From positions 1 through 41,883 of the IMG/VR virus record IMGVR_UViG_3300007640_000012: DNA of 41,883 nt; one strand, given 5' to 3'. Positions 5,233 through 39,627 of the stretch are shown one piece after another (the stretch's first letter is position 1; each line of letters begins with the position of its first letter). Below the pieces are notes generated by a model. That model was not told the origin of the DNA. It saw only the letters and a list, made by a program, of their open reading frames with translations, and did not search any database. This stretch comes from a virus. Position numbers and translations under genes: made by a program.

Positions 5233-5943
5233 ATGAGTATTCTGGTTTGTACCCTCTGTCGAAACGAAATGGGCAGATACCTGCAACAAGTCGTTCCAAT
5301 TTGGCAAGAATTTGCGGACGATATTCTTGTTGTGGATGACCGTTCGACGGACGGCTCACGGGAATACATGATTGAGGAAAAGTGTCGGGTGTACGACAAC
5401 CTCTCAGAGCCGATGATGGGCGCGGAACACGACATTCGCCAGTATCTCTGGGACATCGCAACGCAATCCAAGCACGATATTTTGCTATGGCTAGATGCCG
5501 ATATGTACCCAGCCTGTAACCCCAAGGATGCGTTTAGGGAAGACGCAAATTCTTTCGCATTTAAGTACTACGATCTCTGGGGCGAGTGGGAGTACCGGGA
5601 CGATGTATGGTGGGACGCACACACAAGGCCCCGTGTATGGGCTATACGCAACCCAGGCCCCAACAGCCACAAGCTTCCAAGGGCAGCATGGCACTCAGGG
5701 CACATCCCCGACAGCGCAAAGATCCAGCCGCTTCAGGTGATGGATGACCGCTATTCTCTGTTGCATCTAGCTTACGCCACTCCAGAAGGGCGCAAGCGGC
5801 AGTTTGCAAAGTACGCCCTGCTGTATCAAGATAGTGCGTTGTCGCCAGCAGCCTGGGGTCACGCTTTAACGATCATGGACAAAGCAGCAAACACAGCGAT
5901 GCTGCCATTTGCCCCGGAGTACCATGTCGATCCTAATTCGTAA
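5233..5943 (+). CDS. GT2-type glycosyltransferase
   Basis: A 236-residue GT-A fold glycosyltransferase. The nucleotide-binding VVDDRSTDGS lies at residues 33-42 and the metal-binding DxD (WLDADMYP, Asp88 and Asp90) follows about 50 residues later. The C-terminal half carries HLAYATPEGRKRQFAKYA, common in this group. It should transfer a sugar from a nucleotide donor to an unknown acceptor, either modified phage DNA, a virion protein or the host surface. It is one of three glycosyltransferase-like genes in this genome. It overlaps the next gene by 20 bases. Confidence 0.85.
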   Translation: MSILVCTLCRNEMGRYLQQVVPIWQEFADDILVVDDRSTDGSREYMIEEKCRVYDNLSEPMMGAEHDIRQYLWDIATQSKHDILLWLDADMYPACNPKDAFREDANSFAFKYYDLWGEWEYRDDVWWDAHTRPRVWAIRNPGPNSHKLPRAAWHSGHIPDSAKIQPLQVMDDRYSLLHLAYATPEGRKRQFAKYALLYQDSALSPAAWGHALTIMDKAANTAMLPFAPEYHVDPNS

Positions 5944-6553
5944 TTGGCAGCTAGTGGGGTGGTTGCTTGCCATAAGTGGGGGGCTACTATACATTCACCA
6001 GCGGGACGCACGGCTACGAGCCGAAGGGGAGGCCAGGGTGTACGCCCAGAAAGCAGACTCGTTGACATCTGTTGCAGATTCCTTCAAAACGGCAGCAAGG
6101 AAGGCGGACGAAAGAGCCGATTCTGTTGCCGCAGCAGCCGATCTCGTTGTGATGCAAGCCGAAGAAGTAGTGGCCGAAATCGAAGCACGGGAAAATGCGG
6201 TGATGGAAGCTACGGACGCCACCGTAGACCTCTTGGCACACACCCTACCAGAGGGCTACGAATCTATCGTAGACTCTTTGCGAATAGACATTGAGATGGA
6301 GCGGCTACTTAACAATCAAATGTTGGAGCAGTTTTTACGGGTAATAGAAAGTAAGGATAATATCATTACCGCACAGTCCACTCAGATCTTAGCCAAGGAG
6401 CAGCAGATTTCTGCACTTGAACAAGCACTAGCGGCAAGGGTGTCAGCATCCACCGCCATGGAGAGATCGCAGACAGGGTTCTTGGAAAAAACTTTGTACG
6501 CCGTAGTAGGGGTAACAATTGGCTACACAATTTCACAACTTGGTGGGTTTTGA
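5924..6553 (+). CDS. Membrane-anchored coiled-coil protein (spanin-like)
   Basis: A 209-residue protein. ATG 5924 is preferred to an in-frame TTG 15 bases upstream because CCGGAG lies at good distance. One N-terminal membrane helix (about residues 10-25, VGWLLAISGGLLYI) is followed by a long alanine/glutamate-rich coiled coil (about 30-180) and a second hydrophobic segment near the C-terminus (TLYAVVGVTIGYTISQL). The N-terminal part looks like an inner-membrane spanin (Rz-like), but the C-terminal hydrophobic segment is not typical. A lysis role is therefore only a suggestion. Confidence 0.55.
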   Translation: MSILIRNWQLVGWLLAISGGLLYIHQRDARLRAEGEARVYAQKADSLTSVADSFKTAARKADERADSVAAAADLVVMQAEEVVAEIEARENAVMEATDATVDLLAHTLPEGYESIVDSLRIDIEMERLLNNQMLEQFLRVIESKDNIITAQSTQILAKEQQISALEQALAARVSASTAMERSQTGFLEKTLYAVVGVTIGYTISQLGGF

Positions 6554-6554
6554 A

Positions 6555-6908
6555 ATGAAACTTAGCACCCTGCAAATAGAGTGGGTTGACTGGGCCATGC
6601 AGCAATACGAAGGATCAACCGGCGGATGGGACAATGATGACGAGCTTGTTAACACGTTTATGCATTGCATCTGTGTTGTCATCGCAGCGGGGAAAAACCT
6701 AAAGAACAATGTAGATATTAAAAGTGCCACAAATGTGCTTGAATCATTCAAGAACCGTGAAAAAGAAATGGAAAACATGATGGATCAGGTTCTTCGGCAC
6801 AAAATGAATGAATCTTACGAGGCGATTTTGGAACACAACGATGGATTTGAGGAAATCAAAGACTCAATAAACCCGTTGGGGTTCGACACTAAAGTGTTGG
6901 GGGCGTGA
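6555..6908 (+). CDS. Acidic protein of unknown function
   Basis: A 117-residue protein starting at ATG 6555, one base after the previous stop. It is acidic and mostly helical (LNNREKEMENMMDQVL-like stretches, WDNDDELVNTFMHCICVVIAAGKNL) and has no known motif. The stop overlaps the start of the next gene by one base, so it belongs to the same transcript. Function is unknown. Confidence 0.55.
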   Translation: MKLSTLQIEWVDWAMQQYEGSTGGWDNDDELVNTFMHCICVVIAAGKNLKNNVDIKSATNVLESFKNREKEMENMMDQVLRHKMNESYEAILEHNDGFEEIKDSINPLGFDTKVLGA

Positions 6909-7300
6909 TGGCAAACGTTTGGCATTTACACCGGGACACGTTTTTGGATGACGGGGTACTGGGTAAGCTTGAGGGTGGCGGGGGTCTAGTCTTTGAGACT
7001 ATCGAAAACCCTGCCACCCTCATTGTTCCCGGCGAGTACCGCTGCGTCCGTGATTGGTACCATCGTGGCGACTACGAGGCGTTTGAGATCCTTGTGGAAG
7101 GCCGGAATAGGCTTCTTATTCACGCAGCTAACCGCGCCAGAGAACTAGAGGGGTGTATCGCCCCTGGCCATGAACGTAGCAAAATTAGCGGCGAAACCGC
7201 CGTGATCCATTCTAAAGCTGCGTTTGGCAAATTCATGAATGCTAATAATGACATTGACAAGTTTACGCTAGTTATTACACAAGCCAAGGAGGGGGAATGA
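6908..7300 (+). CDS. DUF5675 family protein
   Basis: A 130-residue protein. The start is ATG 6908, which overlaps the previous TGA; an in-frame GTG lies just before it. Family features are visible in order: GLVFETIENPATLIVPGEYRC, then YEAFEILVEGRNRLLIHAANRARELEGCIAPG, then a C-terminal SKAAFGKFM. The IHxAN...GCI core is characteristic of DUF5675, a small family common in phages near lysis or host-takeover genes. Its biochemical role is not established. Confidence 0.75.
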   Translation: MANVWHLHRDTFLDDGVLGKLEGGGGLVFETIENPATLIVPGEYRCVRDWYHRGDYEAFEILVEGRNRLLIHAANRARELEGCIAPGHERSKISGETAVIHSKAAFGKFMNANNDIDKFTLVITQAKEGE

Positions 7301-8232
7301 CATGGCTGCTACCGTCCTCTCCCTCTTTTCGGGCTACGGTGGGCTTGAACTCGGGCTCCACGCCGCCCTCGGAGATGCCCGAACTGTGGGCTACGTCGAG
7401 CGCGAAGCCTACGCCGCGGCCATCCTCTTGGCCCGGATGGAGGACGAGGCCTTGGAGCCAACTCCTGTTTGGTGCGGCGATGTCCACGAGTTGGACCCCA
7501 CCCCATTTCTCGGAGTGGATTGGGTCACCGGAGGCTTCCCATGCCAGCCGTTCAGCGTCGCAGGAAAGCGAGAGGGCCAAGAAGACGAGCGATGGCTGTG
7601 GGAGTCGGGTATCGTCCCACTCCTTCGGGCGATTCGACCGCAATGGTGTCTATTTGAGAACGTCCCTGGACTTGTTCGGCTTGGACTCGGACCCGTCCTC
7701 CGAGACTTGGCCGTCCTCGGGTACGATGTCGAGTGGGATCTGTTCAAGGCGAGCGACGTGGGAGCCTCCCACCGCAGGGAGCGCATCTTCATCCTCGGAA
7801 GGCTGGCCGACGCCGGATGCGAACTGCTGGCAGGGCGGGTTCGTGGGGGAGAGAGTGGACAAGAACGGGAGGGTGCGGCCACCAGGGAGAGACGGGCAGT
7901 TGCACAATGCGATCACACTCAACTGGCCGACGCCGGATGCGAACTGCTGGAAGGGGGGGACGAGTTCGGAGCCGAGGCCGAACGGGAGGATAGGGCGGGA
8001 CGGGGCATTGGACGACACCTGTTCGCTCCCGGCCCCGCTGATCTCGACGTGTGGGCCAGAGTGCTCACCGAAGCACCGCAGGTTGAACCCTCACTTTGTC
8101 GAGTGGCTGATGGGTCTGCCGGATGGCTGGAGTATCGCCAGGACCGGCTCCGTGCGCTCGGGAATGGCGTCGTACCGCTCCAAGCTGCGGTGGCTGTGCG
8201 AGTGCTTGCTGAACGGGCAGGGTGGGATCTGA
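7297..8232 (+). CDS. Candidate overprinted ORF across the cytosine methyltransferase gene
   Basis: An unbroken 311-codon frame covers the whole methyltransferase gene one reading frame away. Its ATG forms an ATGA overlap with the previous stop and lies 4 bases from the AAGGAGG at 7286-7292, which also serves the methyltransferase start at 7302. The translated sequence carries RTSLDLFG and SETWPSSGTM (about 121-146), WPTPDANCW twice (170-178 and 210-218), and NPHFVEWLMGLPDGW (264-278). I recall proteins with this ordered set in phages, often annotated as hypothetical or methyltransferase-related. It could be a genuine overprinted gene, the other half of an old frameshift, or a shadow frame that databases have over-annotated. 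Confidence 0.35.
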   Translation: MTWLLPSSPSFRATVGLNSGSTPPSEMPELWATSSAKPTPRPSSWPGWRTRPWSQLLFGAAMSTSWTPPHFSEWIGSPEASHASRSASQESERAKKTSDGCGSRVSSHSFGRFDRNGVYLRTSLDLFGLDSDPSSETWPSSGTMSSGICSRRATWEPPTAGSASSSSEGWPTPDANCWQGGFVGERVDKNGRVRPPGRDGQLHNAITLNWPTPDANCWKGGTSSEPRPNGRIGRDGALDDTCSLPAPLISTCGPECSPKHRRLNPHFVEWLMGLPDGWSIARTGSVRSGMASYRSKLRWLCECLLNGQGGI

Positions 8233-34008: not shown

Positions 34009-34037
34009 ATAGTAGACTTGACTAAACCTATGGTCAA
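34009..34037 (-). promoter_or_regulatory. Sigma70-like promoter of the structural operon
   Basis: On the leftward strand TTGACC (34037-34032) and TACTAT (34014-34009) are separated by exactly 17 bases. Expected start of transcription is near 34002, about 27 bases before the portal ATG. It sits six bases after the tail of the terL terminator, so terL and the virion operon are separate transcription units. Confidence 0.7.
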
Positions 34038-35568: not shown

Positions 35569-35702
35569 CGTTCTAATTTCTCCCGTCTAAAAAACACCGC
35601 GCAAATACTTACCAAAATGACATCCGCCCACCGGTGAAATACCAAGCCAACTTTTAAACCGTTCTAATTTTTAAAAATTGGGGCGCACATTCATTACAGT
35701 AA

Positions 35703-35730
35703 ATGATGGGGGGGGTACCAGTATAGTCAA
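35703..35730 (-). promoter_or_regulatory. Candidate promoter for terL
   Basis: On the leftward strand TTGACT (35730-35725) is followed after 16 bases by CATCAT (35708-35703), a weak -10 box. The spacer contains eight consecutive C. An alternative -10, TATACT, overlaps the TTGACT. Transcription would start near 35696 and give a leader of about 130 bases containing a 14-bp AT-rich palindrome. Confidence 0.35.
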
Positions 35731-35831
35731 ACTATGGCCTAATTGCTAGGCTTTTGCGCGCACCGTCTTTCTGTGTGTGGACTAGCCCGGCAAAGCGCAC
35801 CCCCTGTTATTTAAGGGGGGGCTCCCGGCAT

Positions 35832-35890
35832 CTTCGGCTTTTCTTCGGCTTTTCTCTGGTTTTTCTTCGGGCCTTCGGGTTTTGTTCGGG
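35832..35890. repeat. CTTCGG tandem repeat tract
   Basis: Imperfect 11-bp units stand in tandem: CTTCGGCTTTT (35832-35842), CTTCGGCTTTT (35843-35853), CTCTGGTTTTT (35854-35864), CTTCGGGC, CTTCGGGTTTTG and TTCGGG. The first two are identical. The repeated pyrimidine run could be a binding site or a set of weak termination or pause sites for rightward transcription. Confidence 0.7.
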
Positions 35891-36267
35891 TGTCTGGCGA
35901 ACCGCCCAGGAGGCGCGCAAACGGCCCCAGGAGCCCCAAGGACGCCGAACCCCTATATATATGGCCCCGCGCCGTCCGTGAGGCTTTGATGGGCGTTTCC
36001 GTGCGTGTAGAGGGCGTTCTGGGCGGTCGGTGGGGCTAGCTATGCAACCAAGCGGCTAGGCAGCAAGACTCCGCACCCCCTATCTGTCTTTCTAATATCT
36101 ATCCCTGCTCTCTCCCCCCTTGGGTGTATCGTGGCCCCCCGTTGAGGCGTGGGCGCAGCTAGCTGGCGTGCCTGTTCCCCCGTGCGCGGAGCGTGGTCAG
36201 CTTGTGGGCAAGCGAGGGGGGCGAGCCCGTAGGACCCGCCCCCGTTCCGCGTTTTGTGGCGGTCCCC

Positions 36268-36477
36268 CTATTCCCAAGAATAGAAAACTTTGCCCACGTC
36301 CCTTTCCCCGGCCCCGTTGACCACGGCGAAAACGTAGGATGGGCCGGAATACGCCCCCACCACAATCTCGATGGTCCACGGGCCAGCAATCCACCCCCTC
36401 CCCTCAGTCCAGATTTCCGGGACCGTTTCCCCCTTCCGGGGTATAAGCGGCGTTTCCGTCCCCCTGATTTTCTTCAC
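36268..36477 (-). CDS. Small protein of unknown function
   Basis: A 69-residue protein starting at GTG 36477, which overlaps the XRE stop (GTGA). It looks beta-rich (PEIWTEGRGWIAGPWTIEIV, GPSYVFAVVNGAGERDVGKV). AAGGGGGG lies four bases before the start, the G-tract ribosome site used throughout this cluster. No family is recognised. Confidence 0.5.
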   Translation of the reverse strand: MKKIRGTETPLIPRKGETVPEIWTEGRGWIAGPWTIEIVVGAYSGPSYVFAVVNGAGERDVGKVFYSWE

Positions 36478-36674
36478 GGATCCCCCCTTAGTTTCTTTCC
36501 GAGCGTTTCTAGCGCTAGCCCCAACATATCCGGGGGTGGGTGATTCCCCGTTTCCCACAAAGAGACCGTTTTCCGGGTCACCCCTAGATGTTCTGCGAGT
36601 TCTTCCTGGGTGACGCAATGATATCTGCGCCATCCCCGGATAAAGCGGGCCATCCCTTCTTCAAATGAAAGCAT
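36474..36674 (-). CDS. XRE-family transcriptional regulator
   Basis: A 66-residue protein. Residues 21-43 (VTQEELAEHLGVTRKTVSLW plus ETG) form a Cro/CI-type helix-turn-helix, with a helical start (FEEGMARFIRGWRRYH). Such small proteins bind palindromic operators as dimers. The paired operators at 38070-38095 and 38864-38890 are candidate targets. GGGGG lies eight bases before the ATG. Confidence 0.8.
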   Translation of the reverse strand: MLSFEEGMARFIRGWRRYHCVTQEELAEHLGVTRKTVSLWETGNHPPPDMLGLALETLGKKLRGDP

Positions 36675-37979: not shown

Positions 37980-38069
37980 AATCCCCCCTCCTCTAAAGGT
38001 GGTGATGAACTTGCTCCAAGGTACGGTAAAAAATTGGGCACGCAACCCCTTTGGCGGGGGCCGGGGAAT

Positions 38070-38094
38070 ATCGTTACAATTTAGGCCAGCCTAA
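38070..38094 (-). promoter_or_regulatory. Operator-promoter element, left copy
   Basis: On the leftward strand TTAGGctggCCTAAATTGTAACGAT. The inverted repeat TTAGG...CCTAA is followed by TGTAACGAT. The same arrangement occurs rightward at 38866-38890 (20 of 25 bases agree). TGT-AACGAT could be an extended -10 with the inverted repeat over the spacer. It would drive the small-gene cluster from 37979 leftward. Confidence 0.55.
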
Positions 38095-38209
38095 GGGAAG
38101 TTTTTGGGCAGACAAGCGGTAGGCGGCGGGCGATCTTTGCCCCATGTTTAGAGACCCCCGACACCAAATACGCCAGGGCCGGCGCGGTGCGTCCGGCAAG
38201 GTGTCTCGA

Positions 38210-38236
38210 CGTTTAAACGAAACTAGAATCCTAGTT
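38210..38236. repeat. Two palindromes beyond terS
   Basis: CGTTTAAACG (38210-38219) is a perfect 10-bp palindrome, followed by AACTAG-AATC-CTAGTT (38221-38236), an inverted repeat with six-base arms. Together with the iterons at 38303-38359 they mark a structured non-coding stretch of about 280 bp (38095-38371) between the left operator and the terS stop. Confidence 0.55.
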
Positions 38237-38302
38237 CTATGGACTGGCGAACCCAGAGCATGGCCGATCCGCATGGAATGGATCGAACCGACACGAAGAG
38301 GG

Positions 38303-38359
38303 GATTCTCTGGCGTAACCGGGACCGATTCTCTGGTGTAACCCGATTCTCTGGTGTAAC
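38303..38359 (+). repeat. Three 16-bp iterons next to terS
   Basis: GATTCTCTGGCGTAAC (38303-38318), GATTCTCTGGTGTAAC (38326-38341) and GATTCTCTGGTGTAAC (38344-38359) stand in the same direction, 23 and 18 bases apart. They end 12 bases beyond the terS stop. Clustered direct repeats beside terS resemble the sites bound by small terminase subunits (cosB/pac) or by replication initiators. The identity of the ligand is inference. Confidence 0.75.
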
Positions 38360-38371
38360 GGACCCCAATCC

Positions 38372-38851
38372 CTAGTCTTCGATCTCGTACTCCGCGTCTT
38401 CTGCCGGTGCGGGCAACCGCTCCTGATGCTCCGCTGCGGTGATCGCGCGCAGAATCGCCTGACCCAGCGTTGACACCACCGCATCCACGCCGCCACCGTA
38501 CTCCTCACGGTTGTTGACACCAGCCCGCCATTTGAGCGTCTCCACCTGTAGTTTTTTCGCTTGCCAGTCCTCCTGCGTGGCGTGCATCGCGATGTGTACA
38601 GCCTCATCGGCGTCCATATCCCCGCGCAGCTTGCGTAGCCTACGCCACGCCTGTTTGGCGTCTGGGTCGCGGTCCAGCCACCCGTAGAGGGCAGACACGC
38701 CGACAGTCTGATTTTCCTGGGCCGGCTCCCAGAGCGAGGAGACCAAGGCCCGCACGGTGCCATGCTCAAGGTACAAGCGAAAAACCTCCTCCACGCCCAT
38801 GTCCTCTAGCTGTGCAATCCGCGCCTCGTAGATTCTTCTGCCCCCAGCCAT
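38372..38851 (-). CDS. terS: Terminase small subunit
   Basis: A 159-residue protein. The N-terminal helix-turn-helix (IAQLEDMGVEEVFRLYLEHG, VGVSALYGWLDRDPDAKQAW) and the middle MDADEAVHIAMHATQED followed by KKLQVETLKWRAGVNNREEYGGG are typical of small terminase subunits, which bind the packaging site and oligomerise. The tail is acidic. GGAGGTCGC precedes the ATG. TerL lies about 2.8 kb away, an unusual distance. Iterons lie just beyond its stop. Confidence 0.75.
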   Translation of the reverse strand: MAGGRRIYEARIAQLEDMGVEEVFRLYLEHGTVRALVSSLWEPAQENQTVGVSALYGWLDRDPDAKQAWRRLRKLRGDMDADEAVHIAMHATQEDWQAKKLQVETLKWRAGVNNREEYGGGVDAVVSTLGQAILRAITAAEHQERLPAPAEDAEYEIED

Positions 38852-38861
38852 GCGACCTCCG

Positions 38862-38890
38862 TTGTTTAGGTGTGCCTAAACTGTAACAAT
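38862..38890 (+). promoter_or_regulatory. Operator-promoter element, right copy
   Basis: GTTTAGG-TGTG-CCTAAAC (38864-38881) is an 18-base inverted repeat with seven-base arms, followed by TGTAACAAT (38882-38890). A possible promoter is TTGTTT (38862-38867), 17-base spacer, AACAAT (38885-38890) with an extended TGT. The inverted repeat then fills the spacer, the classic place for a repressor. It would fire rightward, upstream of the stronger promoter at 38925. It also lies just before terS on the other strand. Confidence 0.55.
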
Positions 38891-38924
38891 GTTCCCGCGC
38901 ATGGAAAATAGGCTGACAAGGGTG

Positions 38925-38953
38925 TTGACGGCCCATTTGCACATCGCTAGAAT
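38925..38953 (+). promoter_or_regulatory. Sigma70-like early promoter of the rightward arm
   Basis: TTGACG (38925-38930) and TAGAAT (38948-38953) are spaced by 17 bases, five of six matches to consensus in each box. Transcription should start near 38960, about 60 bases before the first gene (39020). It is the most convincing rightward promoter in the divergent region. Confidence 0.75.
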
Positions 38954-39019
38954 AAGTGTGTAACGCCGGTTGCATAGCACGGCGCTTGATTGTAAATTTT
39001 ATCACCAAGGGGAGGCCAC

Positions 39020-39235
39020 ATGAACGGACACGAAGTGCTGGACTATTTTGCCGACAAGCGGGACGAGAGCCGTGACATCGCGCTCCAGCGCCTCTGGGAC
39101 GCTCGCAAGCTCCTGTGCGAGGCGGCAGACGCTTCGCTGTGGGCTCATGTACCCGGACTCCACGGGGGCATCAACGAGGCGGTTGAGGCAATCACGCAAC
39201 TGAGGATCCTGATCCACACTAGAGAGGCGAAGTAA
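39020..39235 (+). CDS. First early gene, unknown function
   Basis: A 71-residue protein with AAGGGGAGG before the ATG. It appears helical and charged (HEVLDYFADKRDESRDIALQ, RLWDARKLLCEAADASL, INEAVEAITQLRILIHT). It is the first gene after the early promoter, a position often used for host-takeover proteins, but no motif supports a specific role. Confidence 0.6.
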   Translation: MNGHEVLDYFADKRDESRDIALQRLWDARKLLCEAADASLWAHVPGLHGGINEAVEAITQLRILIHTREAK

Positions 39236-39441: not shown

Positions 39442-39627
39442 GTGACAAAACGAGAAGCAATCGAAGCCGCCGCAGCTTGGGGGATTAGCGGCGCACAACT
39501 CGCAGCCGCATGGGGGCACACACGGCAATGGCTGTATGTAGCGAGGAAGACGCCGCTCCCCAAAGTGTACGAGCTAGCACTACCCGAAACCATCAACCAA
39601 CTCAGCAAGGGGGTAAAAACGTGGTGA
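39442..39627 (+). CDS. Small HTH DNA-binding protein (Cro-like)
   Basis: A 61-residue protein starting at GTG 39442, eight bases after GGAG. TKREAIEAAAAWGISGAQLA and AAWGHTRQWLYVARKTPLPK fit a helix-turn-helix in which AAWGHTRQWLY is the recognition helix. Upstream starts are open but lie in the previous gene. It is a second candidate, besides the XRE protein at 36474, for binding the paired operators. Confidence 0.6.
   Translation: MTKREAIEAAAAWGISGAQLAAAWGHTRQWLYVARKTPLPKVYELALPETINQLSKGVKTW

Follow-up and report, generated by a model that had tools for sequence, protein, structure and literature searches.

A short palindrome, TTTAGG-n4-CCTAAA, brackets the terminase small subunit gene (terS) of the virus studied here and recurs at a promoter-like site directly before the portal gene in two lineages of related viruses. 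The best reading of this distribution, to which we give a probability of about 0.5, is that a phage-encoded repressor acts through the palindrome on the leftward packaging units. The window, i.e., the whole stretch analysed (41,883 nucleotides), is an entire IMG/VR virus record; its last 123 bases repeat the first, so the record is circular as assembled. Replication genes and early genes are oriented rightward, from 39020 across the record origin to about 9.8 kb. The structural genes all have the opposite orientation: they begin with terS (38851), continue with a small-gene cluster, XRE (36474), terL and portal, and extend to about 9.96 kb. Judged by its terL, portal and SU10-type capsid protein, the virus is placed near the LUZ24/phiM5-like podoviruses, a lineage described in PMC10386132 (capsid protein 45% and terL 40% to phiM5). 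Nucleotide and terS searches of a phage collection gave no matches.

Table 1. Features of the window, ordered by position; ranks refer to 83,696 scored positions.
Feature	Position	Strand	Basis
TGTAAC copies in control DNA	33994, 38073, 38336, 38354, 38882, 38959		
Portal promoter (predicted), TTGACC-17-TACTAT	34009..34037	-	degenerate palindrome; perfect copy in the same place in L070/L119/L074/L094
XRE (HTH_3) protein, 66 aa, likeliest ligand candidate	36474..36674	-	Pfam HTH_3 E 5.6e-9
Leader segment of leftward operon, TTGGAGCAmGTTCAyCAC	38002..38019	-	conserved, window vs L004/L050
Promoter-like site through O_L, TTGGCG-18-TACAAT, convergent to terS	38051..38080	+	rank 14; also found by an independent scanner
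Left operator O_L (putative), TTAGG-CTGG-CCTAAA	38080..38094	-	exact matches; kept in L004
terS, terminase small subunit, Sf6 type	38372..38851	-	Pfam PF20901 E 8.5e-11; phrog_1482 E 2e-8
Right operator O_R (putative), TTTAGG-TGTG-CCTAAA	38865..38880	.	exact matches; identical in L003 and L004
Candidate extended -10 of leftward terS promoter, TG-T-TACAGT	38880..38888	-	rank 22; inferred
Early rightward promoter (predicted), TTGACG-17-TAGAAT	38925..38953	+	rank 1; hexamers kept in L003/L004
Early protein, 61 aa, alternative ligand candidate	39442..39627	+	Pfam HTH_23 E 0.038, below cut-off

The two elements flanking terS

The original prediction described two 25-mers agreeing at 20 of 25 positions on either side of terS, and we recovered both with the sequences and orientations given there: the right element, TTAGGTGTGCCTAAACTGTAACAAT, at 38866-38890 (+) and the left element, TTAGGCTGGCCTAAATTGTAACGAT, at 38094-38070 (-). 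Their common pattern, TTAGGnnnnCCTAAAnTGTAAC (17 fixed positions), has exactly two matches in the 41.9-kb genome, namely these elements, against some 2e-6 chance matches per 42 kb by our estimate from base composition; the reversed pattern, used as a control, has no match in the genome. Because the palindrome alone, with up to two mismatches, stays at background level in the rest of the window (7 matches vs 6.0 expected), it is the exact pair that carries the signal. TGTAAC, the hexamer that follows the palindrome in the elements, occurs 13 times in the genome, and since non-coding control DNA of a few hundred bases accounts for 6 of these copies (Table 1), it is a recurrent control-region feature beyond the two elements.

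O_R directly precedes the ribosome-binding site and start codon of terS, and O_L lies inside the leader of the leftward operon of small genes and XRE. The dyad (6+4+6, centre spacing 10 bp) has the form of XRE/Cro-type operators, i.e., perfect symmetry, half-sites spaced by one helical turn and a promoter nearby.

Conservation in close relatives was assessed mainly in L004 (terS 89% identical to the window), as the 99% identical relative L003/L020 adds little. The L004 left element is kept as TTAGGTAAGCCTAAATTGTAACAGTATTGTAACAG, 1.09 kb from the L004 right copy (vs 0.79 kb in the window), with the palindrome reading TTAGGTAAGCCTAAATTGTAAC between unalignable flanks. We found no alignment between the terS end and the left element, and beyond it the leader segment is the only alignable part. 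L003 and L004 carry the right element without any change, which is weaker evidence because both share an identical 600-bp block.

Other repeats were seen nearby. Directly after the terS stop codon, at 38301-38359, there are three direct repeats of GATTCTCTGGYGTAAC, and two related copies, TTCTCTGYGCAA, occupy the corresponding place in L004; these are possible packaging or replication iterons. A long non-coding stretch between XRE and terL (35620-36280) contains short direct repeats of TCTTCGGCTTTT at 35831-35889.

Recurrence of the palindrome in related viruses

We also scanned IMG/VR, without bias, for the palindrome by itself, TTTAGGCnnGCCTAAA. Of the 80 loci obtained (73 distinct sites), 4 are non-coding matches in two lineages of window relatives, L070/L119 and L074/L094 (portal 46%, terL 50-54% and capsid 55% vs the window virus). 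Among the 80 loci that a control palindrome of equal composition gave, none has a portal match and one has a weak terL match. The terL-portal gap is where the palindrome sits in each lineage, directly before the portal start codon. Specifically, it lies between the -35 and -10 of a strong promoter-like site in each case: inside TTGACA-18-TAAACT in L070/L119 and, twice in tandem, inside TTGACC-17-TAAACT in L074, and in L070 and L074 its right half supplies the -10. The homologous place in L050, a close relative, reads TTGACC-17-TAATAT around a palindrome with two mismatches, and the predicted portal promoter of the window holds a copy with four (TTTAGTCAAGTCTACT, 34026-34011). No perfect palindrome was found in 80 further portal relatives (878 kb), many of which are too short to span the terS-terL region. 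In one relative, L153 (portal 62%), the spacer of the TTGACA-18-TACAAT site before portal (2469-2500) holds another perfect palindrome, GTACCG-ATAG-CGGTAC; on this single case, the portal promoter-operator layout may persist with other half-sites.

Since the palindrome is kept in diverged L004 DNA and recurs in promoter-like sites of related viruses, while the control palindrome has no such relatives, we consider it very probable that these sequences are transcription operators, as the original prediction proposed, with binding predicted.

Several further features of these lineages are worth recording. The distance from the -10 TAAACT to the portal ATG is exactly 7 bases in L070 (8612-8655) as well as in L074 (around 5690-5790 on the reverse strand); as this gap holds no ribosome-binding site, it suggests a leaderless portal mRNA in both lineages. 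The tandem duplication of the promoter-operator in L074 measures 52 bp, and the L074 terL frame (5789-8221) contains an in-frame insertion of ~340 aa in the Walker A region, after which terL homology resumes; by its sequence, the insertion looks like an intein.

An IMG/VR scan for the full element gave 24 matches (mostly one conserved coding gene plus singletons), which outside the kin are indistinguishable from chance. Three of these scan results are suggestive only: a match in L028 18 bp upstream of TTGACA-17-TACACT, 22-bp tandem copies in L024, and a match in L007. Nor is the palindrome generally linked to GTTACA, to which it is coupled in 1 of the 73 sites. A palindrome match in L067 was ruled out as an operator, being inside a coding frame, and so were other repeated palindromes in relatives (e.g., CCGTCA-n4-TGACGG, 20 loci), which are coding.

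Promoter placement and candidate ligands

Promoters were ranked with a simple sigma-70 matrix on both strands (83,696 scored positions, scores used for ranking only; consensus frequencies from general knowledge). The top-ranked site, directly upstream of the first early gene, is likely to be the early promoter; in L003/L004 it reads TTGACA-17-TAGAAT with an unrelated 17-bp spacer. Around it, at 38920-39020, a single block holds 42 of the 70 differences between the window and L020 (13.6 kb, otherwise ~99.9% identical), with the promoter spacer and leader replaced and the -35 and -10 kept; this could represent a recombined allele or an assembly effect.

The original prediction took TGT-AACRAT for a possible extended -10 whose spacer is the palindrome, giving two outward-firing operator-promoters through which a single repressor could control both arms as in a lambda-type switch. 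Its orientation was correct, in that both boxes face outward and lie upstream of outward units (rightward early genes; leftward small-gene cluster), and the right copy is a weak match (TTGTTT-17-AACAAT with TG, rank 64). However, the left copy is at background (rank 1194), every copy (AACAAT or AACGAT) has A at -12 where an extended -10 (TGn; T at -12, A at -11, T at -7) has T, and the far better, conserved early promoter lies ~45 bp downstream of O_R. Moreover, searches of the genome with the Phage_integrase and Resolvase profiles found no tyrosine integrase or serine recombinase (other integration routes are possible), which leaves a lambda-type switch unsupported. Where lambda has shared operators over two divergent early promoters and a CI-like repressor with an oligomerisation domain, here O_R is at the terS start, O_L is by a different unit, and the one HTH_3 protein has 66 aa. 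We regard the outward reading as unlikely; the promoter placement had to be corrected, and a test would otherwise have aimed at the wrong site.

Read on the opposite strand, the TGTAAC boxes rank far higher, at 22 (right) and 14 (left), and each palindrome is centred on the predicted start. The right-hand reading fits terS: with a candidate -35 of TTTCCA at 38907-38902, transcription is predicted to start near 38873, the O_R centre, and L004 has TG-T-TACAAT at the position of the candidate -10. Against a terS promoter at O_R, for which the evidence is the matrix match, stands a rival leftward candidate at 39001, TTCATG-17-(TG)TAAAAT (38982-39005, -; rank 3 in the window), which is kept in L003 and overlaps the ribosome-binding site of the first early gene. 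The left-hand transcript would run antisense to terS, with no assigned product, and the best leftward promoter that O_L could block is unconvincing (rank 372). With these readings, all placeable copies would relate to leftward packaging or late units (terS, the small-gene/XRE operon and portal). It is also conceivable, though very doubtful, that the left site makes the terS-antisense transcript and the right one terS mRNA, so that inward promoter-operators bracket terS and one repressor sets the dose of the packaging initiator, possibly by looping over 0.8-1.1 kb. If true, the terS-bracketing pair would form a switch dedicated to the timing of packaging, in a phage in which no lysogeny module was detected.

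Both candidate regulators named originally were examined as ligands. XRE is a reasonable one: it is the only HTH_3 match in the genome (a bare domain with no further domain), and its close homologues were found only in the window group, L050 and L070/L119, i.e., lineages with the palindrome. None was found in the 80 other portal relatives (~17 of which reach far enough upstream) or in four complete genomes compared. This co-occurrence is why we favour XRE. Its recognition helix, however, differs in three lineages (TRKTVSLWE, TGNTVSNWE, HPQTISDRE) while the half-site does not change; the ligand may therefore be some other protein of phage or host, and we name XRE tentatively, at slightly under even odds. 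The 39442 protein does show the proposed helix-turn-helix likeness, in a weak match (Table 1); its L004 counterpart shares 95% identity with it, L070/L119 gave no homologue, and the AlphaFold model of the 39442 protein is too poor to use (pLDDT 62).

Taken together, the palindrome would be the operator of a phage-encoded helix-turn-helix repressor, and TTTAGGnnnnCCTAAA the sequence that a phage ligand would protect. O_R covers the predicted start of the leftward terS transcript, and a dimer bound there would deny RNA polymerase access to terS. From O_L, in the leader of the operon encoding XRE itself, the repressor would by feedback limit its own operon (autoregulation, if the repressor is XRE), and a third, degenerate copy lies in the predicted portal promoter. 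In the sister lineages, binding between the portal -35 and -10 would occlude the promoter. The early rightward genes would use their own strong promoter, O_R lying ~45 bp upstream of its -35. We infer repression, and any timing that it imposes on packaging, from the positions of these sites.

Alternative explanations

Each of the other explanations accounts for part of the evidence. A host regulator could be the ligand if unrelated phages of one host share the box, and a varying XRE helix facing a constant box would fit this, as would several box-bearing lineages coming from what is presumably one coastal region. The closest known match is a DtxR/IdeR-type iron regulator because TTAGGnnnnCCTAA, common to both, is similar to bases 1-14 of its 19-bp box; a Corynebacterium glutamicum DtxR site listed in PMC1382209 reads TAAGGCAAGCCTAAATTAG. 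However, the consensus box in that paper, TTAGGTTAGSCTAACCTAA, has its axis at position 10, whereas the phage sites are symmetric about n4 (18-bp GTTTAGGCTGGCCTAAAC in L070) and lack the second half-site, CCTAA, and so differ from the DtxR/IdeR box. Scans of 84,980 genomes also revealed no taxon in which copies of the promoter-operator form cluster, i.e., no host regulon (a first scan gave no matches and a second 14 scattered ones, near chance). A host regulator is, in our view, rather unlikely.

Control at the RNA level, with a 6-7 bp hairpin and 4-nt loop before the terS and kin portal start codons acting as a translational operator, is suggested by the stem GUUUAGG-CACA-CCUAAAC immediately before the terS ribosome-binding site and by its counterpart in L070/L074, which ends about 9-10 nt before the portal ATG. 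We think there is little chance of this, given folding energies not clearly better than those of shuffled sequences (z -0.9 to 0.35), a left copy that precedes no start codon, precise phasing of the kin palindrome with a consensus -35, and no Rfam match. Finally, the two copies could be inverted TerS-binding (pac) sites, since terS lies between them and P22/Sf6-like phages have their pac sites within or close to this gene. Yet the only palindrome in L070 is at the portal promoter, 6 kb from the terS-like frame (1645-2178), and better pac candidates exist in the three iterons that follow the terS stop codon, which makes a packaging signal highly improbable. The repressor-operator reading is the one we carry into the comparison below.

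Comparison with known systems

If that reading holds, it provides a concrete putative operator, a candidate ligand and target promoters for an uncultivated group of LUZ24/phiM5-like podoviruses. It would be ordinary phage biology in a little-known group, and its value is that it can now be tested. It also suggests that packaging genes (terS, portal) stand under a single operator, which shifts from one promoter to another in the course of lineage divergence. Capsid protein, terL and portal tie the virus to the LUZ24/phiM5-like lineage, whose description in PMC10386132 contains no promoter or operator (promoter and repressor have 0 occurrences there); the perfect palindrome, moreover, is missing from the 80 other relatives. 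The nearest parallel is with operators of Cro/CI-type (XRE, HTH_3) proteins placed in promoter spacers, as lambda OR1 is at PR: here, too, there is a palindrome of 14-18 bp, in the kin it lies between -35 and -10, and the leftward operon of the window encodes a small HTH_3 protein. Unlike the lambda system, the window virus has no integrase that we found, its candidate repressor has no C-terminal domain and its ligand is putative; and rather than serving two early promoters, the operators are attached to terS and portal, i.e., to packaging and late genes.
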